From: Paenirhodobacter populi
GTDB taxonomy: Bacteria > Pseudomonadota > Alphaproteobacteria > Rhodobacterales > Rhodobacteraceae
Assembly: GCF_004022215.1 (NCBI RefSeq)
Contig: NZ_SAUZ01000006.1
Coordinates: 62,001-126,000, forward strand
Length of the DNA stretch: 64,000 bases
Reading direction: 5' to 3'
A program made the translations under genes and the position numbers. Under the pieces are notes generated by a model. The model was not told the DNA's origin, searched no databases, and saw nothing but the letters and a program-made list of their open reading frames with translations. This document shows, one piece after another, positions 25,849-50,448 of the stretch; position 1 is the stretch's first letter; every line of letters starts with the position of its first letter.

Positions 25849-25872
25849 CCGGGGGCGAGCGGATGGCGCGGC

Positions 25873-26062: not shown

Positions 26063-26064
26063 GT

Positions 26065-26125: not shown

Positions 26126-26137
26126 TGCCACCCTAAT

Positions 26138-26896: not shown

Positions 26897-26941
26897 GCGC
26901 GCCTCCGATATCCGCAGACATCGCATCCGGCGCGGCAAATG

Positions 26942-32988: not shown

Positions 32989-33575
32989 AGCTGATCGAGA
33001 CGGCGCATTGGGACGGTGCGGCGTGCCGGTTCCTCGACCGGCATCTGGCGCGGCTTGCCGATGGCGCGCGGCGGCTGGGCTGGCACCTGCCGGTGCTGCG
33101 CGGGGCCTTTGCCGGGCCTGCGGGGCGGGCGGCGCGGCTGCGGCTGCTGATCGGCGCGGATGGGGTGGCCAGCGTGGAAACCGCCTCCCTGCCCGCCCCC
33201 GTCGCGCGCTGGCATGTCGGGCTGTCGGGGGAACGGCTGCGCTCGGACGATCCGTGGCTGCGGATCAAGTCCACCCACCGCCCGGCCTATGACGCGGCGC
33301 GGCGCGCCCTGCCCGGGGGGCTGGACGAGGTGCTGTTGCTGAACGAACGCGGCGAGGTCTGCGACGGTTCGATCACCACCCTCTTCTTCGACCGGGGCGC
33401 GGGGATGCGGACGCCGCCGCTCGCCTCGGGCGTGCTGCCCGGCGTGCTGCGGTCCGAGATGATCGCGCGCGGCGTGCGGGAAGAGGTGCTGGTGCCGCAT
33501 GACCTGCCGCTGGTCCGGCTGTGGCTGGGCAATGCGCTGCGCGGCATGGGCGAGGCGGTCTTCGTGCCCCGCTAA
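32952..33575 (+). CDS. pabC: Aminodeoxychorismate lyase
   Basis: PLP enzyme of fold type IV that releases pyruvate from aminodeoxychorismate to give p-aminobenzoate, 207 aa, short for the family. GTG start at 32952 inside pabB with GAGGAA just upstream. The PLP lysine is in LRIKSTHRPAYDAAR (about residues 98-112); LLLNERGEVCDGSITTLFF is the cofactor-phosphate region. Its stop codon overlaps that of the convergent GMC oxidoreductase gene (33572-33575). Confidence 0.9.
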   Translation: MESPLHRAPDGLKLIETAHWDGAACRFLDRHLARLADGARRLGWHLPVLRGAFAGPAGRAARLRLLIGADGVASVETASLPAPVARWHVGLSGERLRSDDPWLRIKSTHRPAYDAARRALPGGLDEVLLLNERGEVCDGSITTLFFDRGAGMRTPPLASGVLPGVLRSEMIARGVREEVLVPHDLPLVRLWLGNALRGMGEAVFVPR

Positions 33576-35083
33576 CCCTGCCCGGCCGCGAATTTCTGCG
33601 CGATCGCCATCACCGCCGCGTGGATCGGCCCGCATGGGATCGCCGGGATCACCGAGGCATCGACGACCGACACGTTGTCGAGCCCCCGCAACGACAGATC
33701 AGGCCGCACCACGGCATCGTCCGAGGCGCCCATGGCGCAGGTGGCGACCGGATGGTGATGGGTGATCGCCGCCCTCTGGATAAAGTCGTCAAGGTCGCGC
33801 ATGCCGGGGCCGGGCAGGATCTCGCCCCCGTTCCAGTCGCGCATCGCCCGGGTGCCGGCGACCATGCGGGCGCGGTCGAGTGCCGCCCGGAAGGCGGTGC
33901 GGTCGTGATCGGTGCTGAGGTAGCGCGGGTCGATGCGCGGCGCATCCGCCAGATCCGGCCCGGTGATCGCCAGCTCACCCCGGCTGGTCGGATGGGTGAC
34001 GCCGAACAGCAGGGTGAAGGTCTCGCCCGGGCCGGGCATCGGGAAGCATTCCGACACCGAGGGCGCGACGACGCAGCCCACGACGATATCCGGCGCGCCG
34101 GTATGGACATCGAGCCCGCGCGACGACTGATAGGCGAGCGATTCCGAATGTTGCAGGCGCGAGGGCGCGACGGGCCTGCGCGCCCGGCAGACGACGCCCG
34201 CGCCCAGCATGTGGTCGTGCAGGTTGCGGCCAAGCGCGTGCCGCTCCACCCGGCAGGGCACGCCCGCCGCGGCCAGCACCCCGGGGTCGCCGACGCCCGA
34301 GCGCATCAGCAGCAGCGGGTCGCCGATCGTTCCCATCGACAGGATCACCTGTCCGGCGGCCAGCACCGTATCGCCCTCGGGCGTGCGGATCTCGACCCCG
34401 GTGACGCGGCCCGAGGCGATGCGCAGCCGGTGCACCTCGGCCCCGGTGATCACGGTCAGGTTCGGGCGACCGAGCACCGGGCGCAGAAAGGCCTCGCCCG
34501 TCGTCACCCGCCTGCCATCGCGGATCATCAGCGCATTCGGCGCGGCGCCGATCACCTCGCGGCCGTTGTGATCGGGCAGGCGCGGCAGGCCGAGTTCCTG
34601 CCAGCCCTCAATATAGCTGCGCACCAGCGGATGGGTCTCGGCCTCCGGGATCGTCACCGGCATCTCGCCCCGCGCCCCATGCAGGGGCGTTTCCGTGGCA
34701 TAGCCCTCGGTCGCGCGGAAATGCGGCAGCAGGGCATCGTAGGACCAGCCCGCATCGCCGGTCATCGCCCCCCAGCGGTCGAAATCCGCCGGATGGCCGC
34801 GCAGGTGGAACATGGCGTGCAACCCGCTCGACCCGCCGACCATCCGCCCGCGCGCCCAGTGATGCACCCGCCCCGCCGTGCCGGGCTGCGGCACCGTGCG
34901 GTAATCCCAGTCATAGGGCCGGCGCTGGATCATCGGCCACATCGCCGGATCGAAGATATCGGGATCGGTCGGGAAACCCCCCGCCTCGACCAGCGTGACC
35001 CGGCGCGCGGGATCGGCGCTCAGCCGGTTCGCAAGGATGCAGCCGGCGCTGCCCGCGCCAAGGATCAGGACATCGGTCGTCAC
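33572..35083 (-). CDS. GMC oxidoreductase, candidate pyridoxine 4-oxidase
   Basis: FAD-dependent GMC-family enzyme, 503 aa, GTG start at 35083. The N-terminal FAD motif is DVLILGAGSAGCILANRLS; GRMVGGSSGLHAMFHLRG is GMC signature 1. In the active site I see THHHPVATCAMG (H442-H444) and, where most GMC enzymes have Asn or His, a proline in PCGPIHAAV (P486). The spacing H442/H444/P486 equals that of the reported Mesorhizobium loti pyridoxine 4-oxidase residues His460/His462/Pro504. Together with the adjacent pyridoxamine transaminase this suggests oxidation of pyridoxine to pyridoxal. Another alcohol substrate remains possible. Confidence 0.78.
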   Translation of the reverse strand: MTTDVLILGAGSAGCILANRLSADPARRVTLVEAGGFPTDPDIFDPAMWPMIQRRPYDWDYRTVPQPGTAGRVHHWARGRMVGGSSGLHAMFHLRGHPADFDRWGAMTGDAGWSYDALLPHFRATEGYATETPLHGARGEMPVTIPEAETHPLVRSYIEGWQELGLPRLPDHNGREVIGAAPNALMIRDGRRVTTGEAFLRPVLGRPNLTVITGAEVHRLRIASGRVTGVEIRTPEGDTVLAAGQVILSMGTIGDPLLLMRSGVGDPGVLAAAGVPCRVERHALGRNLHDHMLGAGVVCRARRPVAPSRLQHSESLAYQSSRGLDVHTGAPDIVVGCVVAPSVSECFPMPGPGETFTLLFGVTHPTSRGELAITGPDLADAPRIDPRYLSTDHDRTAFRAALDRARMVAGTRAMRDWNGGEILPGPGMRDLDDFIQRAAITHHHPVATCAMGASDDAVVRPDLSLRGLDNVSVVDASVIPAIPCGPIHAAVMAIAQKFAAGQG

Positions 35084-35160
35084 GGCGGTCCCTTTCGGAC
35101 ATGACCACGGAGGCGGCCGAAGGGGCTCCGGCCGGGCGGGAAGGCATCGGGGGAAAGGGG

Positions 35161-35862
35161 TCAGCCCGGCTCGAACCCGGTCAGGCCAAGCCGCCCCATC
35201 AGTTTCGCCTGCATCGCCGACAGATGCGCCCGCATCGCCTCGGCCGCGCCGGCGGGATCGCGCGCGGCGATCGCCTCGGCGATGGCGCGATGCGCGGCGT
35301 CACGGTCGCGCACGCGGGCCTCGGTCGTGCGGGCATCGGCATCGCTGTCGGTGAAGCGCAGGCGCGCATCGGTCTGCACGCAATGCAGAAGGAAGTTCAG
35401 CTCGCTCGCCAGACTGTTGCGCGCCCCGGCGGCAATGGCGCGGTGAAAGGCCTGATCGGCCTCGCTCGGCGTCATGTGCGGGGCGGAACTGGCGGCCTCG
35501 ACGATCTTCGCGATCTCGTCGGGCGAGGCGCGCAGCGCCGCCAGCCGCGCAAGCGAAGGCTCGATCATCAGGCGCATCTCCATCACCTCGAAGGGATTGG
35601 TCGACTGCACCATCCGCTTCGGGCTGAGCGCGGAGACCGCCCCCGTGCCACCGGCTGCGCGCCGGCCGCTGCGCGTCTCGCGGATCTCGCCCGCCTCGCG
35701 CAGCACGCGCAGGGCCTTGCGCAGCAGATGCCGGGTCACCTGAAGCTGATCGCACAGCACCCGTTCGGGCGGCAGTTCGCCGCTGTCCGGGATCTGCGCG
35801 CGCAGCGCCGCGACCAGCTGGTCCAGCCGCGCGTCAGGGGCCTCCGTCGCCGTATCCGTCAT
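35161..35862 (-). CDS. GntR/FCD-family regulator of the B6/pyridine island
   Basis: 233 aa. N-terminal winged helix (residues ~12-65, with LPPERVLCDQLQVTRHLLRKALRVL) and a C-terminal FCD helical ligand domain carrying the usual metal-site residues (ADQAFHRAIA, AAHRAIAEAI and EAMRAHL). It is divergent from the transaminase gene and 77 nt upstream of the GMC oxidase gene on the same strand. Repeated CAACCA/TGGTTG words in the divergent gap, also found 9 kb away before the monooxygenase operon, are its likely operators. M. loti B6-degradation genes are likewise controlled by a GntR-family repressor (established knowledge; orthology untested). Confidence 0.88.
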   Translation of the reverse strand: MTDTATEAPDARLDQLVAALRAQIPDSGELPPERVLCDQLQVTRHLLRKALRVLREAGEIRETRSGRRAAGGTGAVSALSPKRMVQSTNPFEVMEMRLMIEPSLARLAALRASPDEIAKIVEAASSAPHMTPSEADQAFHRAIAAGARNSLASELNFLLHCVQTDARLRFTDSDADARTTEARVRDRDAAHRAIAEAIAARDPAGAAEAMRAHLSAMQAKLMGRLGLTGFEPG

Positions 35863-35956
35863 CTCTGCCCTTCCGCTGCCCCATGTCCCTGTCGCGGCCC
35901 CGTCCGGGGTTTGCGCCAGATCCGGTTGCCGCCAAGCTGCTGGATATTTCGGCGCA

Positions 35957-36006
35957 GGTCAACCATTTCAACCAAAAACACAGGCGAAATCCTGCAAATG
36001 GTTGCA
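35957..36006. promoter_or_regulatory. Operator cluster A, CAACCA/TGGTTG
   Basis: Between the GntR and transaminase genes: GGTCAACCATTT (35957-35968), CAACCAAAAACA (35969-35980), and TGCAA-ATGG-TTGCA (35993-36006), which contains TGGTTG. The first two words recur exactly or nearly so in cluster B at 44740-44982. Best explained as binding sites of the GntR protein. Confidence 0.7.
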
Positions 36007-36056
36007 TGTTCGGCGCGGCTGCCGTTCCCTGACCCCATCGCCGCAAGGAGACACCC

Positions 36057-37214
36057 GTGACCGCCGATCCCCGCCCCGCCCTGTTCACCCTGACCACCGG
36101 CCCCGTCAACTGCTACCCCGAGGTGCTGAGCGCCCTTGGCCGCCCGGTCAGCTACGACTACGACCCGGTGTTCCAGCGGTTCTACCAAGACCTGTCCCTG
36201 AAGCTGCAACGCATCATGGGCGCGGCGACGGTGCCGGTGATCCTGCAGGGCGAGCCGGTTCTGGGGCTGGAGGCGGCGGCCGCCTCGCTCGTCGGGCCGG
36301 GCGACCACGTGCTGAACCTCGTGTCGGGCGTCTATGGCGCGGCCTATGGCGGCTGGCTCCGGCCACATGCCGCCTCGATGGCCGAGCTGCGGGTGGACTA
36401 CGACCGCATCATCACTCCCGATCTGCTGCGGAAGGCGCTGCGCAATCATCCGCAGACCACCATCGTCGCCCTGTGCCATCACGACACGCCCTCGGGCACG
36501 ATCAACCCGTTGGCGGAACTGGCCGAAGTGGTGCGCGATCACGGCGCGCTGCTGCTGGTCGATTCCGTCTCGGCCTATGGCGGGACGCGGGTGGACCTTG
36601 ATCTGATCGACATGCTGGTGACGGGGCCGAACAAATGCCTCGGCTGCCCGCCGGGGCTGTCGGTTCTGGCGATCTCGGAGCGGGCGTGGGATCACATGAA
36701 GGCCAATCCGGCGGCGCCACGCGGCTCCATCCTGTCGGTGCTCGACTGGGAGAATGCGTGGAAGGCGGGCGCGCCCTTCCCCTTCACGCCCTCGATCGCG
36801 GAACTGAACGGGCTCGACGCCGCGCTCGACCGTTACGCGGCCGAGGGGCCGGAGGCCGTCTGGGCGCGCCATGCGCGGACGGCGGCGGCGATGCGCGCCG
36901 GGGTGAAGGCGATGGGGCTGGACCTCTGGGCGGCCGAGGAGGCTTTCGCCGCGCCCACCGCCACCGCGATCCGCCTGCCCGAGGGCGTCGACGAAACCGC
37001 CCTGCGCGACCTGATGCAGCGGGATTACGGCGTGGTGATCTCGTCGGGCCGCGGCGAGACCTTCAACCGGCTGGTGCGCGTCGGGCATATGGGGCCGACC
37101 GCCTGGCCGATGTATGCGGTGGTCGCGCTGACCGCGCTCCACGGCGCGATGTCGCGGCTGACCACCCGCCCCCTGCGCCTCGGCGCCGCGATCGAGGCGG
37201 CCCTGGCCGCCTGA
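36057..37214 (+). CDS. ppaT: Pyridoxamine-pyruvate transaminase
   Basis: Class V (fold type I) aminotransferase, 385 aa, converting pyridoxamine and pyruvate to pyridoxal and L-alanine in vitamin B6 degradation. The sequence follows the M. loti enzyme closely: ILQGEPVLGLEAAAASL (Glu66, M. loti Glu68), CHHDTPSGTINPL, TGPNKCLGCPPGL (Lys193, M. loti Lys197), VLDWENAW, and SSGRGETFNRLVRVGHMGPT (Arg332 and Arg341, M. loti Arg336 and Arg345). GTG start with AAGGAG 6 nt upstream. A serine-glyoxylate or alanine-glyoxylate transaminase is the alternative, but the matched specificity residues argue against it. Confidence 0.9.
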   Translation: MTADPRPALFTLTTGPVNCYPEVLSALGRPVSYDYDPVFQRFYQDLSLKLQRIMGAATVPVILQGEPVLGLEAAAASLVGPGDHVLNLVSGVYGAAYGGWLRPHAASMAELRVDYDRIITPDLLRKALRNHPQTTIVALCHHDTPSGTINPLAELAEVVRDHGALLLVDSVSAYGGTRVDLDLIDMLVTGPNKCLGCPPGLSVLAISERAWDHMKANPAAPRGSILSVLDWENAWKAGAPFPFTPSIAELNGLDAALDRYAAEGPEAVWARHARTAAAMRAGVKAMGLDLWAAEEAFAAPTATAIRLPEGVDETALRDLMQRDYGVVISSGRGETFNRLVRVGHMGPTAWPMYAVVALTALHGAMSRLTTRPLRLGAAIEAALAA

Positions 37215-37232
37215 TCCGGTGCGCATGATCGC

Positions 37233-37260
37233 AAAAGGGGCGCGCCCGCGCGCCCCTTTT
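37233..37260. terminator. Bidirectional terminator
   Basis: A-run, GGGGCGCG (37237-37244), 4-nt loop, CGCGCCCC (37249-37256), T-run. With the AAAA/TTTT arms the stem is 12 bp. It lies between the convergent transaminase and NicX-like genes and works on both strands. Confidence 0.92.
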
Positions 37261-37269
37261 TCCTTATGG

Positions 37270-38301
37270 TCAGCTGACGACCTTGCCATCCACCGTCATC
37301 GGCCGGCCGTCGAGCGACAACGAACACCCCCGCAGCGGGATATCCAGATGGCAGGGCGTGTCGCGCGTGCCCCCTGCCTCGGTGTTCGGGCCGGTCGAGA
37401 ACAGGAAATTCCCGGCAAAGCAGCGGCTGTCCATGCTCAGCGCCGCCTCCCGGTCATAGAGACCCAGCGTCGTCCAGCTTGCCCGGTGTTCCAACCCCCA
37501 GCCGACATGCGCCATCGCATAGGCGTCCGGGTCGTCGAAACTGTCCATGAAGGCCTTCATGTATTCCGCCGTCACGCCCCCCTCGATCTTCGCGACGCGG
37601 CCCTTGTCGATGGTCAGCACCACCCGGTCGCGGGCGTAATGCTTGAAGGGCAGCAGGATGTCGCCCTCGTCGATGACGATCACGCCCTCGGCGCTGCCCT
37701 CGTCAGGCCAGCGCGCGATCATGCAGCTCGGCCAGTGGTCCCAGCGGCCCGGTTCATCCGCCAGCCCGTATTGCATCAGCACCGGATATTGCCCGAGCGC
37801 GCAGCGGAAATCGGTCCCGGCCTTCGAGGTCACGGTCATCACCCGCGCCGGTTCCATGTAGCGATTCGCCGCGATCACCTTAGCCTTCGCCTCGGGCGTC
37901 GGGATCATCCGCAGCATCGTCTCCGGCGGCTCCACCGCCAGCAGCATCCGCGTCCCGGTCTTCAGGATCTGCTCCTGCTCCTTGGAAAACAGCAGCTGCA
38001 TCGTGTCGATCACCATGTCCGCGGCCTTCAGCCCGGCCAGCGCGGCGGTGTTGAACGCCAGGGGCGTCTTGCCCACATAGCCCGACTTGTCGCGGCTCAG
38101 CGCCTTGTCCCCGTTGATCGGCGGCAGGTGGATCAGCGTCAGGATCCCGCCCAGCAACCCCACCGCAATCCGCGCGGTGCCGACGATCTGCATGTTGCTG
38201 TCGTCGCTCATCAGGATGGCGACCTGCTCGCCCGCCTTCAGGTTGCACTGCTCCAGCACGTTCTTCCAGGCTATCACCATGTCGGCGTCGCTGATGGCCA
38301 T
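37270..38301 (-). CDS. nicX: NicX-type dihydroxypyridine 5,6-dioxygenase
   Basis: Fe(II) ring-cleaving dioxygenase of the NicX family, 343 aa. In the nicotinate pathway this enzyme opens 2,5-dihydroxypyridine to N-formylmaleamate. Family blocks match Pseudomonas NicX closely: ILKTGTRMLLAVEPPETMLRM, GQYPVLMQYGLADEPGRWDHW, and the C-terminal TGPNTEAGGTRDTPCHLDIPL. The iron ligands appear retained: His in AHVGWGLE, His and Asp in CHLDIPL. AGGAGA precedes the ATG at 38301. Last gene of the minus-strand operon that begins with the HpaB-type monooxygenase. The real substrate may be a substituted dihydroxypyridine. Confidence 0.88.
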   Translation of the reverse strand: MAISDADMVIAWKNVLEQCNLKAGEQVAILMSDDSNMQIVGTARIAVGLLGGILTLIHLPPINGDKALSRDKSGYVGKTPLAFNTAALAGLKAADMVIDTMQLLFSKEQEQILKTGTRMLLAVEPPETMLRMIPTPEAKAKVIAANRYMEPARVMTVTSKAGTDFRCALGQYPVLMQYGLADEPGRWDHWPSCMIARWPDEGSAEGVIVIDEGDILLPFKHYARDRVVLTIDKGRVAKIEGGVTAEYMKAFMDSFDDPDAYAMAHVGWGLEHRASWTTLGLYDREAALSMDSRCFAGNFLFSTGPNTEAGGTRDTPCHLDIPLRGCSLSLDGRPMTVDGKVVS

Positions 38302-38321
38302 GCCAATTCTCCTGTCGTTGT

Positions 38322-38834
38322 TCAGCCGCCGATCGGGCGCAGCGCCCGGTCGTAATGCACAAGCGGCCGGGCCGAGGGCGTCAGCAGTACCTCCTCCACC
38401 CGGCCGAGGAAGATGGTATGCGTCCCCTCCTCGATCATGCCCGAAACGGTGCAGCCGATCGCGGCCAGCGCGCCCTTCAGCGCCAGATCCTCGCCCGCGC
38501 AGGGCGACCAGTCGAAGGGCCCGAACCGATCGGCCCCCGACAGCCCGCTCTGCCCGGAAAAGGTGGCGCAGGCTTCGTCCTGCCCTTCGGCAAGGATGTT
38601 GACGCAGAACCGCCCCGCCCCGCGCACCGCCGGATTGGCCGAGCTCGCCCGGTTGAGACAGACGAGCACCGTCGGCGGCTCCATCGTGACCGAGGTGAAG
38701 GCCGTCGCCGTCGTTCCGCGACGCGCCTCCCCGGTGCCGGCGGTGATCACCGTCACGCCCGAGGCGAAATGGCGCATCGCCGTCTTCAGCCCTTCGAGCG
38801 GGTCGGAAATGCGTTCCGTGGAAACCTGTGTCAT
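38322..38834 (-). CDS. Flavin reductase (two-component monooxygenase partner)
   Basis: NAD(P)H:flavin reductase of the HpaC/flavin reductase-like family, 170 aa. MRHFASGVTVITAG and TATAFTSVTMEPPTVLVCLNR are the flavin-binding blocks; RFCVNILAEGQ and the C-terminal LGRVEEV region complete the fold. It would supply reduced FAD to the HpaB-type oxygenase at 43129-44631, the only group D monooxygenase in the window. It sits 20 nt upstream of nicX. GAGGTGA precedes the ATG at 38834. Confidence 0.9.
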   Translation of the reverse strand: MTQVSTERISDPLEGLKTAMRHFASGVTVITAGTGEARRGTTATAFTSVTMEPPTVLVCLNRASSANPAVRGAGRFCVNILAEGQDEACATFSGQSGLSGADRFGPFDWSPCAGEDLALKGALAAIGCTVSGMIEEGTHTIFLGRVEEVLLTPSARPLVHYDRALRPIGG

Positions 38835-38839
38835 CGAGA

Positions 38840-39928
38840 TCACCTCTGTTCTTGGGATATGCGGCCCACCGGGCCATCTTTGCGCCACGGCAGGCGGCGC
38901 AGCAGGATTTGCAGGATCGTCGGGCCGCACAGCACCACGGCGAACAGCCGCACCGTCTGGAACGCCAGCACGATCGAGACATTGGCATGGATCGCCACGG
39001 CGATCAGGGTCATCGTCTCGATCCCGCCGGGCGCGGTGGACAGGAACGCCGTCGCCGCGTCGAGCCCGAGGATCAGCGACAGCCCCGCCGCGATGATCCC
39101 GCCGCAGATCACCATCACCACATTCGCGCCCAGCACCACCGGCAGCAGCCGCAGCGCATGGCCGACCATCTGGCGGGTGAACAGCAGCCCGACCTCCAGC
39201 CCGATGACGATGAAGGTCGCGTCCACGACCATCGGCGGCACCGACAGCCGCGCAAGGCCGAACCCCTCGATCACCGCGCCCAGCCCCATCGGCACCAGCA
39301 TCCCGCCCGCCGGCATCCATTTCAGCCGCGCGGAGGCCAGCGACAGCCCGATCAGCGCAAGGGTCAGGACCAGCGATCCCGGCCCGTCGTCGCCGGGCGG
39401 AAGGATGTCGGACGTGCCCTCGGGCAGCAGTTTCGACACCAGCGTCGCCGCGACGATGACGAAGGCCAGCCGGCAATATTGCATCAGCGCGACGATGCGG
39501 CTGTCGATGCCGCGTTCGTGCGCGATGATGACCATGGCGCCCGACATGCCGGGCAGGCTGCCGAAGACGGCGGCATCCGCCGAAACCCCGGCCCATCGGT
39601 TCAGCGCCCAGCCCGTGGCGAAGGAAACCGCCACCGTCAGCACCGTCACCAGCAGCACCAGCGGCAGATGCGCCAGCATGTCGGCATAGATCCCGGGCGT
39701 CAGCGAGGTGGCGATGAACACCCCCGCCGCCCCCTGCGCCAGCACATAGACCGGGCGCGGGTTGCGCAGCGTCACGCCCGCCGCCGTCGCCGCGACGATC
39801 CCCGCCGCCATGCCGCCCAGCAGCGGCGCCGCCGGAAACCGCAGCAGCGCGAACAGCCCCCAGAACACACCGACAAGGCCGATCAGCAAGCCCCATTGCG
39901 CCGCCCGGTTTTGCGGGAAAGGGATCAT
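38840..39928 (-). CDS. AbrB-family (PF05145-type) integral membrane protein
   Basis: 362 aa, about ten to eleven hydrophobic helices. The internal duplicated layout (FGSLPGMSGAMVIIAHERG in the first half, FLSTAPGGIETMTLIAVAI in the second) is typical of the AbrB/AmoA-like membrane family, often annotated as ammonia monooxygenase or AbrB regulator despite being a probable transporter. ATG at 39928 overlaps the upstream amidase stop as ATGA. Within this operon it may import a pyridine substrate or export an intermediate; the direction is unknown. Confidence 0.82.
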   Translation of the reverse strand: MIPFPQNRAAQWGLLIGLVGVFWGLFALLRFPAAPLLGGMAAGIVAATAAGVTLRNPRPVYVLAQGAAGVFIATSLTPGIYADMLAHLPLVLLVTVLTVAVSFATGWALNRWAGVSADAAVFGSLPGMSGAMVIIAHERGIDSRIVALMQYCRLAFVIVAATLVSKLLPEGTSDILPPGDDGPGSLVLTLALIGLSLASARLKWMPAGGMLVPMGLGAVIEGFGLARLSVPPMVVDATFIVIGLEVGLLFTRQMVGHALRLLPVVLGANVVMVICGGIIAAGLSLILGLDAATAFLSTAPGGIETMTLIAVAIHANVSIVLAFQTVRLFAVVLCGPTILQILLRRLPWRKDGPVGRISQEQR

Positions 39929-42674: not shown

Positions 42675-42681
42675 GAAGGGC

Positions 42682-43077
42682 CTATCGGATCCGGGCAAGG
42701 AAGGCTTCCTTGTCCCAGTAGTCGGCAGTTGCGGCAATCCGGCCGCCTGTCAGGGTGAACATCAGGATGCCCGGCAGGCTGACCGTGCGCGGCGTGGCAT
42801 CCGCCGCCGCGCGCGGGGTGAAGGTGCCCGCCAGATCGTAGCGCAAAAGCAGGTGAGGACCAGAGGTTATCCGTTCCCGTTCGTGCCAGGCCACATCGGG
42901 CAGCATGGCGGCAAGGCCGTTCAGGCCCGCCTCGATCGCCTCGCGGCCCGTGCGTGTCTTGCCCATGGCGGCCTCGTGATGCGTGGCCTCGGGCGCGTAA
43001 AGCGCCGCCGCCCCCTGCCAGTCGTGCCGGTTATAGGCCGCAAGGAATGCGGTGACGATATCGTTCGCGTCCGGCAT
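42682..43077 (-). CDS. SnoaL-like/NTF2-fold protein
   Basis: Small cone-shaped-fold protein, 131 aa, of the SnoaL/nuclear transport factor 2-like group. IVTAFLAAYNRHDWQGAAALYAPEATHHEAAMG is the usual N-terminal helix-strand pattern; TDYW-like ATADYWDKEAF ends it. GGAGGGG precedes the ATG at 43077. Such proteins are often isomerases, hydrolases or dehydratases, and in catabolic operons act on ring-opened or unstable intermediates. The specific role here is unknown. Confidence 0.85.
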   Translation of the reverse strand: MPDANDIVTAFLAAYNRHDWQGAAALYAPEATHHEAAMGKTRTGREAIEAGLNGLAAMLPDVAWHERERITSGPHLLLRYDLAGTFTPRAAADATPRTVSLPGILMFTLTGGRIAATADYWDKEAFLARIR

Positions 43078-43128
43078 GAGCCCCTCCGGCGAAAGACCGC
43101 GCGCCCGGCGGGCACGCGGCATGGCCGC

Positions 43129-44631
43129 TTACCAGTCCATCCCGGCCAGCGTCTTGACCTGATCGACGAATTTCGTCCGGTCCACCTCGTCATGCAGTCT
43201 CGCGCGCAGGCGCGGCGCGGGGCTGGAATTGACGTTCTCGAACAGCGCCACACGACCGGCGAGCGCGCCGCTCGTCATGTCCCAGATGAAGTTCATCAGG
43301 TGTTCCTTCTGCATCGCCGAAACGCCATGACCGGGCAGCAGGTCGTTCAGGTAATGGCCGATGTCCGGGTTGCCGAAGGCGCTCTGGCCAAAGCGCATGA
43401 CCAGCCCCTGACCGCACAGCTCCTGCAGGATATGGATGATGCGCGGATATTCCTGAATCGAGTAGAGCCGCCCCGCCGTCAGCATCCCCACATCCGGGGT
43501 CAGGACGCCCGCCTCGGTATAGGTGGCCTTGGCCTCGGCCGCGGTGACAAAGGCGCGCAGGGTCTGCTGATACTGCACCAGCTCGCCCAGCATCTGCTGC
43601 ACCGCGGGGATCTTGCCGGTGCCCAGCACGTCGAGCACCATCTGCCCGGCGCCGACGAAAAGCTCGGATTTCACCGCAAGCCGCGTCAGCACGTGCCAGT
43701 GGGCAAAGACGCAGACCGGCCCATACCACGACATTCCGTCCGGATCGCCAAGGTTGAAGATCCGGTCCTTCGGCACGAAAACATTGTCGAAGACGATGAA
43801 CTGGTCGGCCTCTTCGCCCATCGAGGCAACCGGATGGTCGAACTTGCTGGCCTCGGGTTGGGACACCATCTCGCGCGAGATCATGGTGATCCCCTCGGCG
43901 GCGATCGGCACGGCGCCCCAGACGCAGGCCTCGGGCGGGGTGGTGGCGAGCCCGCCGAGATTGGTGAAGAAGATGTCGTTCGCCTGCGCCGCGATCGAGC
44001 CCACGGTCTTGGCGCCCGAAACGTAGATCCCGTCCTTCGTCACCTTCTTCACACGCAGGAAGGCGGCTTCGGCGGCCTTGGGGTTGGACCGGTCGGTCTG
44101 CGGCCCGGCCAGGCTTTCCGAGGCGGTCAGGTTGTTCTGCCGCCCGTATTCCATATAAGCCTCGATATTCGCGGCGAAATCGGGATCGCAGCCCTCGATC
44201 ATCGACTTCTTTTTCCGGAACGTCGGCAGATAGGCCATCAGCCCCGCGACGATCCCGGGCGCGAGGTCGGAGGGACGGCCAAAGGTGCCCCCGGTCTTCA
44301 GCGAGGAATATTCGATGATCTTGCGCCGGTCGGTCAGCTCCGCGGGGCTGCGCGGCACCTGCCAGGCGCGGCTGGACAGCTCGCCCGTGGCGGGATCGGT
44401 GAAGGTGGTGGCATCGGCGAATTCGGGCCTGAACTGATCGTCGAAGGTCTCGGCCATCAGTTCCGCCCCCTTGGCGAGGCCGGGTTCGTCGAACACCGTG
44501 TCGAGCCTGCGCCCGCCAAGATAGATCCGCCGCCCGTCGCGGAGCGATGCGAGAAATTCCGCCCCGGTCTTCAGCCGGCTGACCGGCTTTCCCGCCGGAT
44601 GGGGCGATGCCGCCGCGTGCTGCGATGTCAT
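43129..44631 (-). CDS. HpaB-family FADH2-dependent monooxygenase
   Basis: Oxygenase component of a two-component flavin monooxygenase (4-hydroxyphenylacetate 3-hydroxylase family, group D), 500 aa. It has the acyl-CoA dehydrogenase-like fold; VSGAKTVGSIAAQANDIFFTN and WGAVPIAAEGITMISREMV are family blocks. AGGAGA precedes the ATG at 44631. First gene of the minus operon HpaB-SnoaL-amidase-amidase-AbrB-reductase-NicX. In this setting it likely hydroxylates a hydroxypyridine to the dihydroxypyridine cleaved by NicX. No 4-hydroxyphenylacetate pathway genes are nearby, so the substrate is probably not HPA. Confidence 0.88.
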   Translation of the reverse strand: MTSQHAAASPHPAGKPVSRLKTGAEFLASLRDGRRIYLGGRRLDTVFDEPGLAKGAELMAETFDDQFRPEFADATTFTDPATGELSSRAWQVPRSPAELTDRRKIIEYSSLKTGGTFGRPSDLAPGIVAGLMAYLPTFRKKKSMIEGCDPDFAANIEAYMEYGRQNNLTASESLAGPQTDRSNPKAAEAAFLRVKKVTKDGIYVSGAKTVGSIAAQANDIFFTNLGGLATTPPEACVWGAVPIAAEGITMISREMVSQPEASKFDHPVASMGEEADQFIVFDNVFVPKDRIFNLGDPDGMSWYGPVCVFAHWHVLTRLAVKSELFVGAGQMVLDVLGTGKIPAVQQMLGELVQYQQTLRAFVTAAEAKATYTEAGVLTPDVGMLTAGRLYSIQEYPRIIHILQELCGQGLVMRFGQSAFGNPDIGHYLNDLLPGHGVSAMQKEHLMNFIWDMTSGALAGRVALFENVNSSPAPRLRARLHDEVDRTKFVDQVKTLAGMDW

Positions 44632-45054
44632 GCTGTTCTCCTGAAAATCTGGGCGGGACAGGCCGCCGAACGAAACCACGAGGGTGCGGCAGGCCCGCCG
44701 CGATCATCGGAATCAGGTAAACAGCACGACCAATAGCGCGCAACCAAAAACAATGGTTGCAAACTGATTCCGGCAGGATTGCCGATTTTTCAGGCAGCAG
44801 CCCGGGGGATTTCCACAGATAAATCTTCGTAATCAGGCAATAATTTCGACTTTTCGTCGGAATCTGCGCAAATTTTGAACAGAGGCGCCGTCCCCCAAGG
44901 GGAAAGGCGTCAGCGGGTCATTTTCAACCATTTAATCGGTTGCATTGTGTTGACGACCAAATGACGCCCGATATGGTTGACCCGCCGCATCACACCTGCC
45001 GCAGAGCCCGACATGATCCAGTCCCCGCCCCATCCGATCCGGACCGGCGCCGCC
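44632..45054. other. AT-rich control region upstream of the monooxygenase operon
   Basis: About 420 bp with no gene. It is distinctly AT-richer than the flanks and contains the three CAACCA/TGGTTG sites described separately (44740-44982). A small hairpin CGGCA-GGAT-TGCCG with ATTTTT lies at 44771-44790 on the plus strand; its role is unclear. The promoter of the minus operon should lie here. Confidence 0.6.
44740..44982. promoter_or_regulatory. Operator cluster B, CAACCA/TGGTTG
   Basis: Site B1: GCAACCA (44740-44746) and TGGTTGC (44754-44760), a perfect inverted repeat with a 7-nt spacer. Site B2: TCAACCATTT (44924-44933) followed by CGGTTGCA (44937-44944). Site B3: ATGGTTGACC (44973-44982), the inverse of GGTCAACCAT in cluster A. 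The 12-mer CAACCAAAAACA at 44741 is identical to one at 35969. Likely bound by the GntR protein at 35161-35862. Confidence 0.7.
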
Positions 45055-45471
45055 TCAGCGGCAATCGGTGGCGGTCTCCTGCGCGGCGCAGCGCAGGATG
45101 GGCGCGGTGGCGACCGCCCCGCCCCGCCGCGCAAGGTCGATTTCATGGCGCGTTTCCCAGGACCGGCCATCGAGCCCGCACCACAGCCGCTCGACCGGCA
45201 TCCGGTCCTGCGCCTCGTTCATCAGATAGACGGCGCCCGTGGCGGCGTCGGACCACAGGGTGAAGCCACCTTGCGCCTGCGGCGCGATGGTGGCCAGATG
45301 GTCGGAATACCAATGCGCCAGCTTCACATCGCAGGACAGAACGGTGGCGCCGGTGTTTTCCACGGCGTAATCCAGAGGCGAAAGCCCCTCGGTGCCCTTG
45401 CGGTGGTCGCTGTCGGCAAGGGCCGCGGAGGCGGCGGCGGAAACCATGGCTGCGAAAGCGAGGGCTTTCAT
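45055..45471 (-). CDS. Hypothetical secreted protein
   Basis: 138 aa with a clear signal peptide (MKALAFAAMVSAAASAALA then DSDHRKG). The mature part has four cysteines (VLSCDVK, RLWCGLDG, ILRCAAQ, ATDCR), suggesting two disulfides in the periplasm, and a LYLMNEAQDRMPVE-like strand region. I do not recognise the family. It is transcribed away from the BMP transporter gene and toward the operator region, with only a weak ribosome-binding site. Its position inside the island may be incidental. Confidence 0.65.
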   Translation of the reverse strand: MKALAFAAMVSAAASAALADSDHRKGTEGLSPLDYAVENTGATVLSCDVKLAHWYSDHLATIAPQAQGGFTLWSDAATGAVYLMNEAQDRMPVERLWCGLDGRSWETRHEIDLARRGGAVATAPILRCAAQETATDCR

Positions 45472-45556
45472 CGTGACCCATCCCCATTCGGTTGATCCGG
45501 GGCGAAATCGGCAACCGACGCATGCGAATGTCAACAACCAAACAGGGAGCCAGAAG

Positions 45557-46591
45557 ATGACGAATGGAAAAGTGAAGGGCCTTGCCCGCCTTCTGGGCGG
45601 CGCGGCCCTGGCACTGGCGATCGGCGGGGCGGCGGGGGCGGCGGACCTGACCTCGATCGCCATCCTGACGCCGGAACAGGGCACGGATTACGGCTGGAAC
45701 CAGCAGGGCATCGAAGGCGCCAAGGCCGCGGGGGCCGCCGCCGGGGTCGAGGTGATCGTGGCCGAGAACCTTGGATACGGCGACGTGCGCCCGACGCTTC
45801 AGGAACTGGCCGAGGATGGCGCGGGCCTGCTGATCGCCCATGCGAGCGGCTACAACACCGCGGCGCCCGAGGTCGGCGCGCAATACGACGTTCCGGTGGC
45901 GGTGGTCGACACGCCGCAATCGCTGAAGGAAGGGGCGGTGGCGGATTATACCGCCTCGGGCCACCAGGGGGCCTATCTCGCGGGCGTGCTGGCGGCGAAG
46001 ATGACGCGCACCGGCACCGTCGGCATCGTCGTTTCGGGCGAGCCGCCGTCGTGGAACGCGCAGTCGACGGCCTTCGCCGAGGGCGTGAAGGCGACGCAGC
46101 CCGATACGGTGATCCGCTACGCGGTGATCGGCCCGGCGGCCTATTCCGACGCGGCGGGCGGCAAGCGCGTGACCGAATCGCTGATCGCCGCGGGCGCCGA
46201 CATCATCTTTGGCCAAGGGAACGGATCGTCCTTCGGCATGTTGCAGGCGGTCGAGACCACCAAGGCCACCGATGGCGGCAAGGTGCTGTTCATCGACGTG
46301 ATCGGCGACAAGACCCCGATCGACAAGGGCTTCCTGCTGTCCTCGGTGCTGTGGAACCTTGAACCCGTCTATGCGGGGATGATCGCCGATGTGAAGGCGG
46401 GCATCTACGGCACGCACAACTACGACATCAACCTGAAGGACGGCTCGGTCGATCTGCTGAAGACCGCGAATATCCCCGATGACATCTGGACCGAGGTGCA
46501 GGCGGTCCGGCAGGATATCATCGACGGCAAGATCACCGTGACGCCGAAATACGATGCGGCTTCGGTGCACGCGCTGGTCACCGGGAACTGA
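45557..46591 (+). CDS. BMP-family ABC transporter substrate-binding protein
   Basis: Basic membrane protein (BmpA/PnrA-like) periplasmic binding protein, 344 aa, with a signal peptide (ARLLGGAALALAIGGAAGAA). The mature start DLTSIAILTPEQGTDYGWNQQG contains the family D-x-G-x-N-Q block; SGHQGAYLAGVLAAKMT and IFGQGNGSSFGMLQAVE follow. BMP systems usually carry nucleosides or other heteroaromatic compounds, so a pyridine or B6 vitamer is plausible here (inference). First gene of a four-gene transporter unit; GGGAG precedes the ATG at 45557. GTCAACAACCAAAC just upstream resembles the island operator. Confidence 0.92.
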   Translation: MTNGKVKGLARLLGGAALALAIGGAAGAADLTSIAILTPEQGTDYGWNQQGIEGAKAAGAAAGVEVIVAENLGYGDVRPTLQELAEDGAGLLIAHASGYNTAAPEVGAQYDVPVAVVDTPQSLKEGAVADYTASGHQGAYLAGVLAAKMTRTGTVGIVVSGEPPSWNAQSTAFAEGVKATQPDTVIRYAVIGPAAYSDAAGGKRVTESLIAAGADIIFGQGNGSSFGMLQAVETTKATDGGKVLFIDVIGDKTPIDKGFLLSSVLWNLEPVYAGMIADVKAGIYGTHNYDINLKDGSVDLLKTANIPDDIWTEVQAVRQDIIDGKITVTPKYDAASVHALVTGN

Positions 46592-46606
46592 GGCGGATGG
46601 GAAGCG

Positions 46607-46668
46607 AGGGGGCCAGCCCCCTCGCGCGTTCCGCGCTCACCCCCGGGATATTTGTGGAAAGATGAAAG
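46607..46668 (+). repeat. Two-hairpin intergenic repeat, copy 6
   Basis: Starts 15 nt after the BMP gene stop. Hairpin 1 AGGGGGC/GCCCCCT (46607-46622); hairpin 2 GCGCG-TTC-CGCGC (46624-46636); then CCCCCGGGATATTT and a tail with GTGGAAAGATGAAAG. It lies inside the transporter operon, between the binding-protein and ATPase genes. Confidence 0.87.
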
Positions 46669-46699
46669 CCAGAAGGGCTCCGGCGTGAAGGAGAAACAG

Positions 46700-48235
46700 A
46701 TGGCCGATCCGGCGCCGATCATCCGGCTGCGGGGGGTGACGAAGCGCTATCCGGGCATCGTCGCCAACGACAGCATCGACATGGAGTTCCGGCAGGGCGA
46801 GGTCCATGTCCTGCTGGGCGAGAACGGCGCGGGCAAATCGACGCTGGTGAGCATGCTGGCCGGTCTGCAACAGCCCGACGAGGGCGTGATCGAGGTGGAG
46901 GGCGTGCCCACGGCGCTGTCCTCGCCCGAGCGCGCGCTGGAACTGGGCATCAGCACGGTGTTCCAGCATTCGATGCTGGTGCCGACGCTGACGCTGGCGG
47001 AGAATGCGGCGCTTGGCGGGCGCTGGTGGCGGAACCCGGACCGGCGCGGGCATGAGGCGCGGATGGCCGAAACCGCCGCGCGGATCGGGGTGGTGCTGAC
47101 GCCCTCGGCCCTGACCGGAAGCCTGTCGCTTGGCGAGCGCCAGCAGGCGGAGATCGTGCGCGCGCTGATGCGGGGGGCGCGGTTCCTGATCCTCGACGAG
47201 GCGACGGCGATGCTGACCCCGCATGACGCGGCGGGGTTGGGGCAGTTGATGCGGCGGCTGGCCTCGGAAGGGGTCGCGGTGGTGTTCATCACCCACAAGC
47301 TGAACGAGGCGATCGAATATGGCGACCGGGTCAGCGTGCTGCGCCTTGGCCGCAAGGTCGGCGGTATCGCGCCCGAAGAGATGCGCGCCCTGACCCCCCG
47401 CGCCGCGACGGAGCGGATCGTGCATCTGATGTTCGGCGCGCAGGATGCGGCGGTGGCGGCGGTGGCCCCGCCCCCGGTCGGGGCGGATGCGCCGGTGGTT
47501 CTGGAATGCCTCGCCCTGCATGTCGCGGATGCGACGGTCCCGGTCAGCGCCATCAACCTGACCGTGGCGGCGGCGGAGATCCTTGGCATCGCCGGGATCG
47601 ACGGCAACGGGCAGAAGGAACTGGCCGAGGCGATCGCCGGCCAGCGCCCGATCAGCAGCGGGCGGATCCGGCTGGATGGCGCCTTCATCGACGGGCTCGA
47701 TGTCGGCGGGCGCCGCCGCGCGGGGTTGCGCTACGTGACGGACGACCGGCTGGGCGAGGGCACGGTGGGCGGCTTTCCCGTCTCGATCAACCTGCTGCTC
47801 AAGCAGATCGGCGATCCGCCCTTCTGGCAGGGCGGGATCGAGCGCCCGGCGAAGATCGACGAAAACGCCCGCGCGCTGGTGAAGGCCTTCGACATCCGCA
47901 CGCCCTCGATCCACACGCCCGCGGGCAAACTGTCGGGCGGCAATATCCAGAAGCTGCTGCTGGCGCGCGAGCTGACCGGCAGCGCGCGGGCGGTGATCTT
48001 TGCCAAACCGACCTACGGGCTGGATCTGCAGAACATCGCCGCCACCCGCCGTCGCATCCGCGAGGCCGCCGGGCGGGGCTGCGCGGCGATCGTGATCTCG
48101 ACCGAGCTGGACGAACTGCTGGAACTCGCGCATCGCATCGCGGTGATGTCGCAGGGCCGGATCGTCGGCGTCGTGCCGAACGATGCCGATGCCCGCCGCC
48201 GCATCGGCGAATTGATGAGCGGGGTCGCCGCATGA
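46700..48235 (+). CDS. Nucleoside-type ABC transporter ATPase (double ABC)
   Basis: Fused two-domain ATPase of the sugar/nucleoside (CUT2-like) importer type, 511 aa. First domain: Walker A GENGAGKSTLVSMLAG, signature SLSLGERQQAEIVRAL, Walker B FLILDEATAML. Second domain is degenerate at Walker A (GIAGIDGNGQKELAEAI) and has signature LSGGNIQKLLLARELT, as is normal for this family. ATG 46700 has AAGGAG upstream; a GTG at 46685 is an alternative. Partner of the BMP protein and the two permeases. Confidence 0.92.
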   Translation: MADPAPIIRLRGVTKRYPGIVANDSIDMEFRQGEVHVLLGENGAGKSTLVSMLAGLQQPDEGVIEVEGVPTALSSPERALELGISTVFQHSMLVPTLTLAENAALGGRWWRNPDRRGHEARMAETAARIGVVLTPSALTGSLSLGERQQAEIVRALMRGARFLILDEATAMLTPHDAAGLGQLMRRLASEGVAVVFITHKLNEAIEYGDRVSVLRLGRKVGGIAPEEMRALTPRAATERIVHLMFGAQDAAVAAVAPPPVGADAPVVLECLALHVADATVPVSAINLTVAAAEILGIAGIDGNGQKELAEAIAGQRPISSGRIRLDGAFIDGLDVGGRRRAGLRYVTDDRLGEGTVGGFPVSINLLLKQIGDPPFWQGGIERPAKIDENARALVKAFDIRTPSIHTPAGKLSGGNIQKLLLARELTGSARAVIFAKPTYGLDLQNIAATRRRIREAAGRGCAAIVISTELDELLELAHRIAVMSQGRIVGVVPNDADARRRIGELMSGVAA

Positions 48236-48431
48236 CTCTCCCCCGCTTCCTCAAGGTCCTTCCGGCGCCCTCTTTCCCCTCGCACCCCCGCAAGCGGAAT
48301 CGTGACCTGCTTTCGTGTTTCCATAAATATCCCGGGGGTGAGCCGGCCCGGCCGGCGAGGGGGCAGCGCCCCCTCTGCGCGCCCGCCGTCGGCGATCCGG
48401 TCCGCATTCAGGCAAGACGAGGAGGTTCCGC
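48236..48431 (-). repeat. Gap holding two-hairpin repeat copy 7 (48310-48374)
   Basis: The repeat reads on the minus strand: hairpin 1 AGGGGGC/GCCCCCT (48358-48374), hairpin 2 GCCGGC/GCCGGC (48342-48356), tail CCCCCGGGATATTT then ATGGAAACACGAAAG ending at 48310. It is antisense to the operon, between ATPase and permease genes. The rest of the gap shows nothing further except the GAGGAGG ribosome-binding site at its end. Confidence 0.8.
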
Positions 48432-49511
48432 ATGACCACGGAAACCACCAACCTGACCTCGGGGGGGCTGCCGCCCCGCCTGCGGGCGGCGCTGGCGACG
48501 GCGGGGCTGTCGCTTGGGCCGATGATCGGGGCTTTCGTGCTGTCGGGGCTGGTGCTGCTGCTGATGAAGGTCAATCCGTTCGACTATTACGGCTATGTGT
48601 TCCAGCGCGGGCTGCTGTCGCCCTCGGGCGTGCAGGCGACGCTGACGCGGATGGGACCGCTGCTGCTGCTGGCGGCGAGCCTTATCGTCGCCTTCCGGGC
48701 GGGGCTATGGAATCTTGGCGGCGATGCGCAATTCCTGATGGGGGCGGTCTTCGTCGCCGCATGGGCGCCCCTGATGGTGCAGCACCTGCCGGTCTGGCTG
48801 GTGCTGGTGCTGTCGATGCTGGTCTCGGTGGTCATCGGCGCGATCTGGGGCCTGCTGCCCGCGATCCTGCGCGCCTATCAGGGGATCAACGAGATCATCA
48901 CCACGCTGATGATGAATTTCCTCGGCATCTCGCTGTCCTCGGCGCTGGTGAAGCTGGTCTTTGCCGATCCCGACACCACCGTGCCGCAGACCCGGACCCT
49001 GCCGGTCGGGGACCGGCTGCCGGTGCTGTTCGGCTCGAACGTCTCAAGCGGGCTGGTGATCGGGCTGGTGGTGATCCTTGCGGTCCACTGGATGATGACG
49101 CGCACGGCCTTTGGGCTGAAGCTGCGGGTCGTCGGCGCGAACCCGGAGGCCGCGACCCATGCCGGGCTGTCCGTGCCAAAGCTGACCCTTGCGGTCTTTG
49201 CCATCTCGGCCGGGCTTGGCGGGCTTGCCGGGGCGGTGGCGATCCTTGGCCAGTATGGCAATGTCCGCGCCGACTGGAACCCCGCCTATGCCTTCACCAT
49301 CGTGCCGCTGGTCTTTCTGGCGCGGTTCAACGGCTACGCGGCGATCGGCTATGTGTTCCTGTTCTCGGCGCTTGGCATCGGGTCCGAAAGTGCCGCGCGC
49401 CGGCTGGACGTGCCGAACTATTTCACGCTGGTCACGGTGGCGCTGCTTCTGGTGCTGCTGGCCGTCACCGAAAGATGGGCCGCGCTCCGCCGCGCCCGGA
49501 AAGGGGTCTGA
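48432..49511 (+). CDS. ABC transporter permease, nucleoside type (1)
   Basis: Inner-membrane permease of the BmpC/YufP-like type, 359 aa, eight to ten helices. WNLGGDAQFLMGAVFVAAW and YQGINEIITTLMMNFLG are family blocks; GLKLRVVGANPEAATHAGL is the cytoplasmic loop that contacts the ATPase. GAGGAGG precedes the ATG. It is followed after one nucleotide by the second permease, with which it should form a heterodimer. Confidence 0.92.
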   Translation: MTTETTNLTSGGLPPRLRAALATAGLSLGPMIGAFVLSGLVLLLMKVNPFDYYGYVFQRGLLSPSGVQATLTRMGPLLLLAASLIVAFRAGLWNLGGDAQFLMGAVFVAAWAPLMVQHLPVWLVLVLSMLVSVVIGAIWGLLPAILRAYQGINEIITTLMMNFLGISLSSALVKLVFADPDTTVPQTRTLPVGDRLPVLFGSNVSSGLVIGLVVILAVHWMMTRTAFGLKLRVVGANPEAATHAGLSVPKLTLAVFAISAGLGGLAGAVAILGQYGNVRADWNPAYAFTIVPLVFLARFNGYAAIGYVFLFSALGIGSESAARRLDVPNYFTLVTVALLLVLLAVTERWAALRRARKGV

Positions 49512-49512
49512 G

Positions 49513-50448
49513 ATGTCCGGCCTGTTCACCGACGCCTTCATCATCGCGCTGCTGGCCGGGGTCGTCGCCGCCACGGTGCCGCTGCTGCTTGCCGGTCTGG
49601 GCGAGCAGATTTCCGAAAAGGCCGGGGTGCTGAACATCGGCATCGAGGGGATGATGCTGATGGGCGCCTATGGCGGCTTTTACGTCGCATGGGCAAGCGG
49701 GAACCTCTGGCTCGGCTTTCTGGGGGGCGGGATCGGCGGCATGGTCGTCGGCGCGCTGATGGCGCTGTTCTGCGTGCGGATGGGGCTGAACCAGATCGTC
49801 GTCGGCATCGCGCTGACACTGGGGGCCGAGGGGGTGACGGCGCTCTTGCATTACGAGCAGTTTTCGAGGCTCTACCCGAGGCTGTCGGTGATGGCGCCGC
49901 TGCCCATTCCCGGCCTGTCGCAGATCCCCATCGTGGGCCCGGCGCTGTTCACCCGCGAACCCGTGGTCTATCTGGCCTTCGCGCTGGTGCCGCTGTTCGT
50001 CTGGCTGTTCCGCCGCACGCAGCTGGGGCTGATGTTGCAGGCCGCCGGGGACAAGCCCGCGGCGCTGGACACCGCCGGGGTGAGCGTGCTGAAGATCCGC
50101 ACCATCGCCGTGCTGGCGACAGGGCTGCTGGTGGGGTTCGGCGGGGCCTTCCTGTCGATCGTCGCGGCGGGGGTCTTCGTCCCTTTCATGACGCATGGGA
50201 ACGGCTTCATCGGCATCGTGCTGGCCATGCTGGCGCGCGGCCGGCCGACATGGGTGATGGGCGGGGCGCTGGTCTTTGGCACCTGCCTGTCGGCCACCAC
50301 GGCCTTGCAGGTCGCGGGGGTGGATGTGCCCACGGACATCATCCAGATGCTGCCCTTCGTCGCGGTCATGGCGGTGCTGCTGGTCGCGGGGCGCAAGGCG
50401 CGCCTGCCCGCCGCTTTGGGCGCGGCCTATGTGCGCGGCGAACGCTGA
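49513..50448 (+). CDS. ABC transporter permease, nucleoside type (2)
   Basis: Second, shorter permease (YufQ/BmpD-like), 311 aa. EKAGVLNIGIEGMMLMGAYGG is the highly characteristic N-terminal block, GLMLQAAGDKPAALDTAGVSV the coupling loop. AAGGGG lies just upstream of ATG 49513. It is the last gene of the transporter unit; its 3' end overlaps the convergent DUF707 gene by 22 bp. Confidence 0.92.
   Translation: MSGLFTDAFIIALLAGVVAATVPLLLAGLGEQISEKAGVLNIGIEGMMLMGAYGGFYVAWASGNLWLGFLGGGIGGMVVGALMALFCVRMGLNQIVVGIALTLGAEGVTALLHYEQFSRLYPRLSVMAPLPIPGLSQIPIVGPALFTREPVVYLAFALVPLFVWLFRRTQLGLMLQAAGDKPAALDTAGVSVLKIRTIAVLATGLLVGFGGAFLSIVAAGVFVPFMTHGNGFIGIVLAMLARGRPTWVMGGALVFGTCLSATTALQVAGVDVPTDIIQMLPFVAVMAVLLVAGRKARLPAALGAAYVRGER

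Follow-up and report, generated by a model that had tools for sequence, protein, structure and literature searches.

A 64,000-nucleotide stretch of the Paenirhodobacter populi genome (positions 62,001 to 126,000 of contig NZ_SAUZ01000006.1, assembly GCF_004022215.1; hereafter the window, whose own coordinates are used below) contains at 33572-50448 a gene island that probably encodes a third vitamin B6 catabolic route. The minus strand carries the genes for a GMC flavoprotein and an FCD/GntR-type regulator, and a gene run that extends from HpaB (start 44631) to NicX (end 37270) in the order HpaB, SnoaL, AmiA, AmiB, AbrB, flavin reductase, NicX. The plus strand carries the gene for pyridoxamine-pyruvate transaminase (PPAT; 36057-37214) and four genes of an ABC importer (45557-50448). 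An earlier sequence-only reading of the window had listed a pyridoxine oxidase, a regulator, PPAT, NicX, HpaB with its reductase, amidases, SnoaL, AbrB and a BMP-type importer, and all are present with family support. Two routes of B6 breakdown are described in PMC3538738, and genes are assigned for one, that of M. loti. No description of the present gene set was found in the open-licence literature, and a subscription paper could exist; the island looks like a combination for vitamin catabolism that has not been described before, built from enzyme families that are themselves known.

The genes for the entry into B6 catabolism are the most readily named. The GMC enzyme (PNOX; 33572-35083, minus strand) resembles pyridoxine 4-oxidase: PDB entry 4ha6, 'Pyridoxine 4-oxidase', is its best match (E 9.9e-168) among the 44 solved sequences matching at 1e-20. 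PPAT scores 605.6 bits against the NCBIfam model NF046070 (cut-off 600) and matches PDB entry 2z9u (E 1.1e-147), named aspartate aminotransferase in the PDB. We take both entries to be M. loti enzymes, and 2z9u to be the M. loti PPAT. The four importer subunits, all on the plus strand, are a substrate-binding protein (45557-46591, start inferred; NF047927, 481.1 bits, cut-off 400), an ATP-binding subunit (46700-48235, start inferred, the longest open reading frame beginning at 46652; NF047930, 741.9 bits, cut-off 670), permease 2 (48432-49511; NF047929, 492.3 bits, cut-off 400) and permease 1 (49513-50448, start approximate; NF047928, 491.0 bits, cut-off 465). Because all four exceed the curated cut-offs of the NCBIfam 'putative B6 ABC transporter' (NF047927-NF047930), the importer has already been named, as putative, by NCBI; no difference between that transporter and the island importer was seen, and its substrate is putative by NCBI's own naming. 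Relatives of the importer subunits (49-66% identity) adjoin PPAT in five of eight PPAT regions from genomes without the cluster, and in three of these five regions (L106, L107 and L111) PNOX, pyridoxal dehydrogenase and 4-pyridoxolactonase are present as well.

The remaining genes suggest an unfamiliar lower pathway. The HpaB-type protein (43129-44631, minus strand) contains the HpaB_N and HpaB domains (PF11794/PF03241) of an oxygenase component, and the flavin reductase (38322-38834, minus strand; PF01613, 9.8e-40) is its presumed partner, which together give the make-up of a two-component monooxygenase. At 1e-50, HpaB has matches to six solved sequences, five of them named chloro- or nitrophenol monooxygenases. 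In an alignment with PDB entry 7e8q, which we take to be HadA, the proposed base His290 of HadA falls on His311 of the island protein (counted on the printed alignment), a residue that is invariant in 44 of 44 sequences. HadA hydroxylates phenols at the position para to the hydroxyl group (PMC6180312). The island enzyme thus shares with the HadA, TftD and TcpA monooxygenases the HpaB family, a separate flavin reductase and an aligned putative catalytic histidine, but it is distant from them in sequence, and its predicted substrate is a pyridine whereas theirs are phenols.

Two AS-family amidases are encoded on the minus strand. The nearest solved relative of AmiA (41226-42674) is 6-aminohexanoate-cyclic-dimer hydrolase (E 5.8e-78) and that of AmiB (39925-41229) is malonamidase E2 (E 7.5e-70), a pair of relatives that would fit one secondary amide and one carboxyl-amide. 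The Lys and Ser stretches, presumably catalytic, are invariant in AmiA from 45 loci and in AmiB from 41 loci. The same strand encodes a SnoaL/NTF2-like protein (42682-43077; PF12680, 2.1e-18) and an AbrB-type membrane protein (38840-39928; PF05145, 2.4e-74).

The NicX-type ring dioxygenase (37270-38301, minus strand) has a single PDB match at 0.01, 2,5-dihydroxypyridine 5,6-dioxygenase (E 9e-116). Its iron ligands H265, S302, H318 and D320 are kept in all 45 island-type NicX sequences examined, as are Leu104, His189 and Arg293. Two positions, however, are changed: residue 175 is Leu, and residue 177 is Gln in 45 of 45 island-type sequences versus Glu in five of five plasmid nicotinate-type NicX and in the nicotinate NicX that this genome also encodes. 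In the P. putida enzyme, Glu177 bonds N1 and O1 of 2,5-dihydroxypyridine and the E177A variant retains 2.7% activity, according to PMC7910607. In a tree of 58 rows, a branch with support 97/96 separates the 45 island-type sequences from the rest. Like the nic pathway, the island would combine Fe(II)-dependent ring cleavage of the NicX type with subsequent amide hydrolyses; it differs in having HpaB and a flavin reductase where the nic pathway has NicC, two AS amidases where that pathway has NicD and NicF, no NicE, and a NicX with Gln177 from a separate clade. NicC, NicD, NicE and NicF are not among the island's families, as the sequence-only reading had noted for NicC, NicD and NicF. Relatives of NicB, NicC, NicD, NicE and NicF lie in a separate nicotinate-type cluster of this genome, which holds its own NicX (L170; G000 contig C3, 28001-48000).

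A scan of GTDB species for sequences aligning with HpaB returned 46 loci; the scan depends on the presence of either of two short peptides and therefore passes over clusters that are more distant. The 42 loci with an HpaB of at least 65% identity were taken as the core set, gene presence being called at set identity thresholds. PNOX was found in 41 of these 42, NicX in 41, AmiA, AmiB and SnoaL in 40 each, PPAT (within 10 kb) in 39, the importer substrate-binding protein in 38, the flavin reductase in 36 and AbrB in 12. The three core loci without PPAT are short contigs of 6417, 11611 and 6025 bases, so that PPAT is linked in 39 of 39 loci outside them. The gene order is shuffled between lineages and the linkage is retained, in hosts that include Rhodobacterales, Rhizobiaceae, Brucellaceae, Stappiaceae and Xanthobacteraceae, among others. 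PPAT is rare by comparison: of 385 alphaproteobacterial genomes sampled, 8 (counting this one) have it over the cut-off, and only this genome among the 385 has a close HpaB, four other matches at 1e-60 being only 39-40% identical. In a plasmid collection, four records contain PPAT at E<=1e-60, and three of them (Rhizobium daejeonense, Rhizobium sp. ACO-34A and Ochrobactrum quorumnocens), which are also the three best records for HpaB and NicX, hold PPAT, HpaB and NicX in one cluster. The presence of PPAT within 10 kb in 39 of 42 close-HpaB loci is not due to chance. In the remaining four of the 46 loci (HpaB 57-64% identical), PPAT is absent from the fetched stretch.

Three architectures were distinguished. 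Type A, with AbrB, comprises 12 loci plus the window. Type B (19 loci) adds two SDRs, a metallo-beta-lactamase-fold lactonase-like protein, MmgE/PrpD, a HIBADH-like dehydrogenase and a carboxymuconolactone decarboxylase-like protein. The third group, 11 other loci, comprises one truncated contig and ten Ancylobacter-like loci with a carboxymuconolactone decarboxylase-like gene, 8 of which also have an enoyl-CoA hydratase-like gene. The MmgE/PrpD, SDR1 and carboxymuconolactone decarboxylase-like proteins of Rhizobium daejeonense were searched for in 11 cluster genomes. Here, MmgE is without a match at 1e-20 and SDR1 without one at 1e-40, and the carboxymuconolactone decarboxylase relative reaches only 36% identity; these genes were therefore kept out of the shared core; the lactonase model also found nothing here at 1e-8, SDR2 and the type B lactonase themselves not being used as queries.

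The two operons of the island share promoter half-sites. The regulator (35161-35862, minus strand), a candidate regulator of the island, has an FCD domain over the cut-off (1.8e-18) and a GntR domain of 23.5 bits, under the 27-bit cut-off. The promoter stretch between it and PPAT (35960-36004) contains two CAACCA and one TGGTTG half-site. The pattern CAACC-N7-10-GGTTG has two matches in the window, versus 0.12 expected, and both are candidate operators upstream of HpaB (CAACC-N9-GGTTG at 44741-44759 and CAACC-N8-GGTTG at 44925-44942). A palindrome of this kind precedes HpaB in nine of nine further type A loci examined (three type A loci were left out); one of two Ancylobacter loci has a shorter palindrome before HpaB and the other has none, nor has the type B locus L016. 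CAACCA/TGGTTG was counted in 22 loci, the window among them, that share a similar GntR; these loci are related to one another and hence not independent. The half-sites number 7.53 per kb before PPAT, 6.49 before GntR (the two stretches overlap) and 6.62 before HpaB, versus 0.65 before the substrate-binding protein, 0.13 before PNOX and 0.30 elsewhere, an enrichment of more than 20-fold before PPAT/GntR and HpaB. The FCD/GntR protein probably controls both operons through these sites. The half-sites at both promoters and the linkage of PPAT support a link between the operons at 36 kb and 43 kb, and the earlier proposal of a single regulated island for B6, with a lower pathway of another kind, is supported as far as sequence can tell.

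A search for additional regulon members with CAACC-N8/9-GGTTG in six genomes, with the reversed pattern as a control, was dropped: this genome has seven such places, including the two before HpaB, versus two with the control, and three A/T-rich or partly A/T-rich palindrome sites in other genomes have no evident catabolic gene by eye.

The classical route of M. loti and Pseudomonas MA-1 (pathway I) shares with the island a PNOX-like GMC enzyme, by sequence similarity only, and PPAT, and importer relatives adjoin its upper genes in other genomes. It differs in its SDR pyridoxal dehydrogenase, 4-pyridoxolactonase and FHMPC dehydrogenase, which were not found here, and in opening the ring with MHPC oxygenase, a step assigned in the island to HpaB and NicX. 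Pfam scans at E 0.001 detected no metallo-beta-lactamase, SDR or decarboxylase family among the island genes, in agreement with the sequence-only reading that the classical genes are not in the island; nor do the island's families include a candidate for MHPC oxygenase, the decarboxylase, AAMS hydrolase or 4-pyridoxate dehydrogenase beyond the single GMC enzyme.

The search for classical markers extended to 32 whole genomes, namely this one, 23 from the 46 loci, and 8 in which PPAT has a match and a close HpaB is lacking (G035, among these 8, is below the PPAT cut-off). In this genome, 4-pyridoxolactonase (NF047925) has no match at 1e-8, SDR pyridoxal 4-dehydrogenase (NF047923) reaches 188 bits at best (cut-off 325) and FHMPC dehydrogenase (NF042925) has no match at 1e-90. 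Across the sample, 4-pyridoxolactonase is over the cut-off in 1 of the 23 other cluster genomes versus 5 of the 8 without the cluster, SDR pyridoxal dehydrogenase in 0 of 24 cluster genomes (this one included) versus 4 of 8, and FHMPC dehydrogenase has matches at 1e-90 in none of the 24 but in 5 of the 8 (3 of the 5 over the cut-off). The type B lactonase-like protein and SDR2 score 50.7 and 129 bits, versus cut-offs of 325 for the classical models. Complete classical genes elsewhere in the genome would have counted against the earlier reading; pyridoxal dehydrogenase (none over the cut-off), 4-pyridoxolactonase and FHMPC dehydrogenase were not found, and the genome-wide search did not extend to MHPC oxygenase, the decarboxylase, AAMS hydrolase or 4-pyridoxate dehydrogenase.

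From these gene families we infer the following reactions and their order. The ABC importer would bring B6 vitamers into the cell, where the GMC oxidase would convert pyridoxine, and PPAT pyridoxamine, to pyridoxal. B6 compounds bear a 3-hydroxyl and a 2-methyl group. HpaB and the flavin reductase would hydroxylate the ring of pyridoxal or 4-pyridoxate at C6, para to the 3-hydroxyl, yielding the 2,5-dihydroxypyridine pattern required by NicX enzymes; since NicX needs two para-placed oxygens, C6 is the single addition that would turn the B6 ring into a NicX-type substrate. The NicX homolog would then cleave the C2-C3 bond, giving an N-acetyl amide rather than the N-formyl product of ordinary NicX because C2 bears the methyl group. 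Hydrolysis by the two amidases would yield first acetate and next ammonia, and a hydroxymethyl-substituted butenedioate-type acid would remain. Starting from 4-pyridoxate, the formulas would run from C8H9NO4 through C8H9NO5 and C8H9NO7 to acetate, ammonia and C6H6O7; a pyridoxal start would give the analogous C6H6O6. Since the search of this genome turned up neither a lactonase nor a dedicated dehydrogenase, either HpaB would act on pyridoxal directly or an unlinked enzyme would oxidise it, and 4-pyridoxate, if it is the HpaB substrate, would come from such a separate oxidation. A bolder version, whose chances we put somewhat below even, is that HpaB acts on pyridoxal with no 4-pyridoxate stage, that the cleavage of a 2-methylpyridine ring to an N-acetyl amide, by the new NicX clade, is without precedent among known dioxygenases, and that the extra rhizobial SDR, lactonase, MmgE/PrpD and carboxymuconolactone decarboxylase-like genes act after ring opening.

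If the B6 route is as proposed, it would be a third one, with a gene set conserved in dozens of species, many of them rhizobia, marine or soil bacteria. Annotations such as '2,5-dihydroxypyridine dioxygenase' and '4-hydroxyphenylacetate hydroxylase' in these clusters would be misnamed, and the assignment of the transporter to B6 becomes testable.

Of the alternatives, the one that survives best, at low probability, is that another hydroxypyridine (3-hydroxypyridine or 2,5-dihydroxypyridine) is the substrate of the HpaB-NicX-amidase operon, whose place beside the B6 genes would be incidental. The only solved relative of NicX does act on 2,5-dihydroxypyridine, and more distant HpaB/NicX clusters exist with no PPAT nearby. 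However, PPAT is linked in every close-HpaB locus off the short contigs, despite the shuffled gene order, and the half-sites are common to both promoters; this points to B6 or something directly derived from it as the substrate, rather than to just any hydroxypyridine. Four of five nicotinate-type NicX loci have adjoining hydrolase, isochorismatase-type and racemase genes (our labels for these are NicD, NicF and NicE types; L123 has no racemase in its stretch), whereas the island has none. In this genome the maleate isomerase relative belongs to the nicotinate cluster that lies apart and holds a NicX of its own; in 8 of 11 cluster genomes no relative exceeds 30% identity. Gln177 in all 45 island-type NicX, versus Glu in the six nicotinate-type sequences, also speaks against another hydroxypyridine.

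It is improbable that the island encodes the second B6 pathway, that of Pseudomonas IA and Arthrobacter Cr-7. This pathway runs via 5-pyridoxate, and we know of no genes assigned to it. The relatives of PNOX and PPAT, families assigned from sequence, act at C4 and give pyridoxal, not isopyridoxal; ring opening in the second pathway is one flavoprotein step, and NicX would therefore have no role. In its favour, this route is established as biochemistry, with 2-(hydroxymethyl)-4-oxobutanoate as its end product (PMC3538738). Most improbable of all, the island might feed the classical lower pathway, with the missing genes hidden in assembly gaps or located in other parts of the genome, for which a 91-contig draft and the four enzymes outside the genome-wide search leave some room, but the three markers are not found in a genome whose completeness is listed as 100, and the one lactonase over the cut-off in the 23 further cluster genomes lies in another gene context. 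That protein, from Actibacterium (G385 contig C16, L128), was not taken as classical; its neighbours are ABC transporter- and dehydrogenase-like genes with no B6 cluster, by eye.

Several observations weigh against the proposed B6 route. The loci are related to one another, so that their counts are not independent. A Haematobacter plasmid has PPAT and lacks the rest of the cluster in the fetched stretch. Both amidases and the reductase are missing from the stretches fetched for the Neorhizobium loci L017 and L019; the reductase is also absent from L038, L041 and L048, and SnoaL from L033 and L048. In L015 and L037 the 350 bases before PPAT are free of half-sites. The genomes G037 and G263 contain PPAT and the importer but lack both the three classical markers and a close HpaB. 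Gln177 also occurs in seven of eight more distant NicX-like proteins and is thus not unique to the B6 clade, and Phe105 is not diagnostic, since the nicotinate NicX of this genome and two of the five plasmid sequences of that type have it too. The top solved match of HpaB is, by a hair, named 4-hydroxyphenylacetate 3-hydroxylase, and the similarity of HpaB to para-hydroxylases is only distant. With no pyridoxal dehydrogenase over the cut-off and no lactonase found in this genome, HpaB may act on pyridoxal or on 4-pyridoxate, and the proposed chemistry does not account for pyridoxal oxidation, SnoaL, AbrB or the small protein described below. The clusters of Thioclava (L008) and Pseudooceanicola (L053) contain HpaB, SnoaL, a NicX-like protein and a B6-type importer, with no PPAT or PNOX in the fetched stretch; L008 additionally holds two amidases and AbrB. 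These two clusters perhaps start from 4-pyridoxate or another pyridine.

Other clusters differ further. L009, L010, L050, L056 and L057 are more distant HpaB and NicX-like clusters with amidases (partly by eye), some of which have isochorismatase- and FAD-synthetase-like genes and another type of ABC importer; they are perhaps further pyridine pathways. Two metagenome bins labelled Enterobacterales (L023 and L033, the latter lacking SnoaL) contain a type A cluster, which suggests transfer between classes or a binning error. A candidate MHPC oxygenase at L106:18865-19992 was rejected as an LVIVD-repeat protein for which the PDB gave no match at 1e-50; L126 contains the same gene. In three regions of genomes with classical upper B6 genes (L126:292-3686, L127 and L129), GST, RidA-like, LVIVD-repeat and approximately 390-aa cupin genes recur near FHMPC dehydrogenase (families scanned for L126), a set that may represent yet another lower route.

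The small, probably secreted protein of 138 aa (45055-45471, minus strand), which was not on the first list, has a signal peptide-like start (by eye) and no Pfam match. Its four Cys and an AHW stretch are invariant in 32 aligned homologs, and homologs accompany the island in 39 of the 42 core loci. To the left of the island, the open reading frames at 12687-26938 of the window resemble a cobalamin biosynthesis cluster, by eye from their translations.

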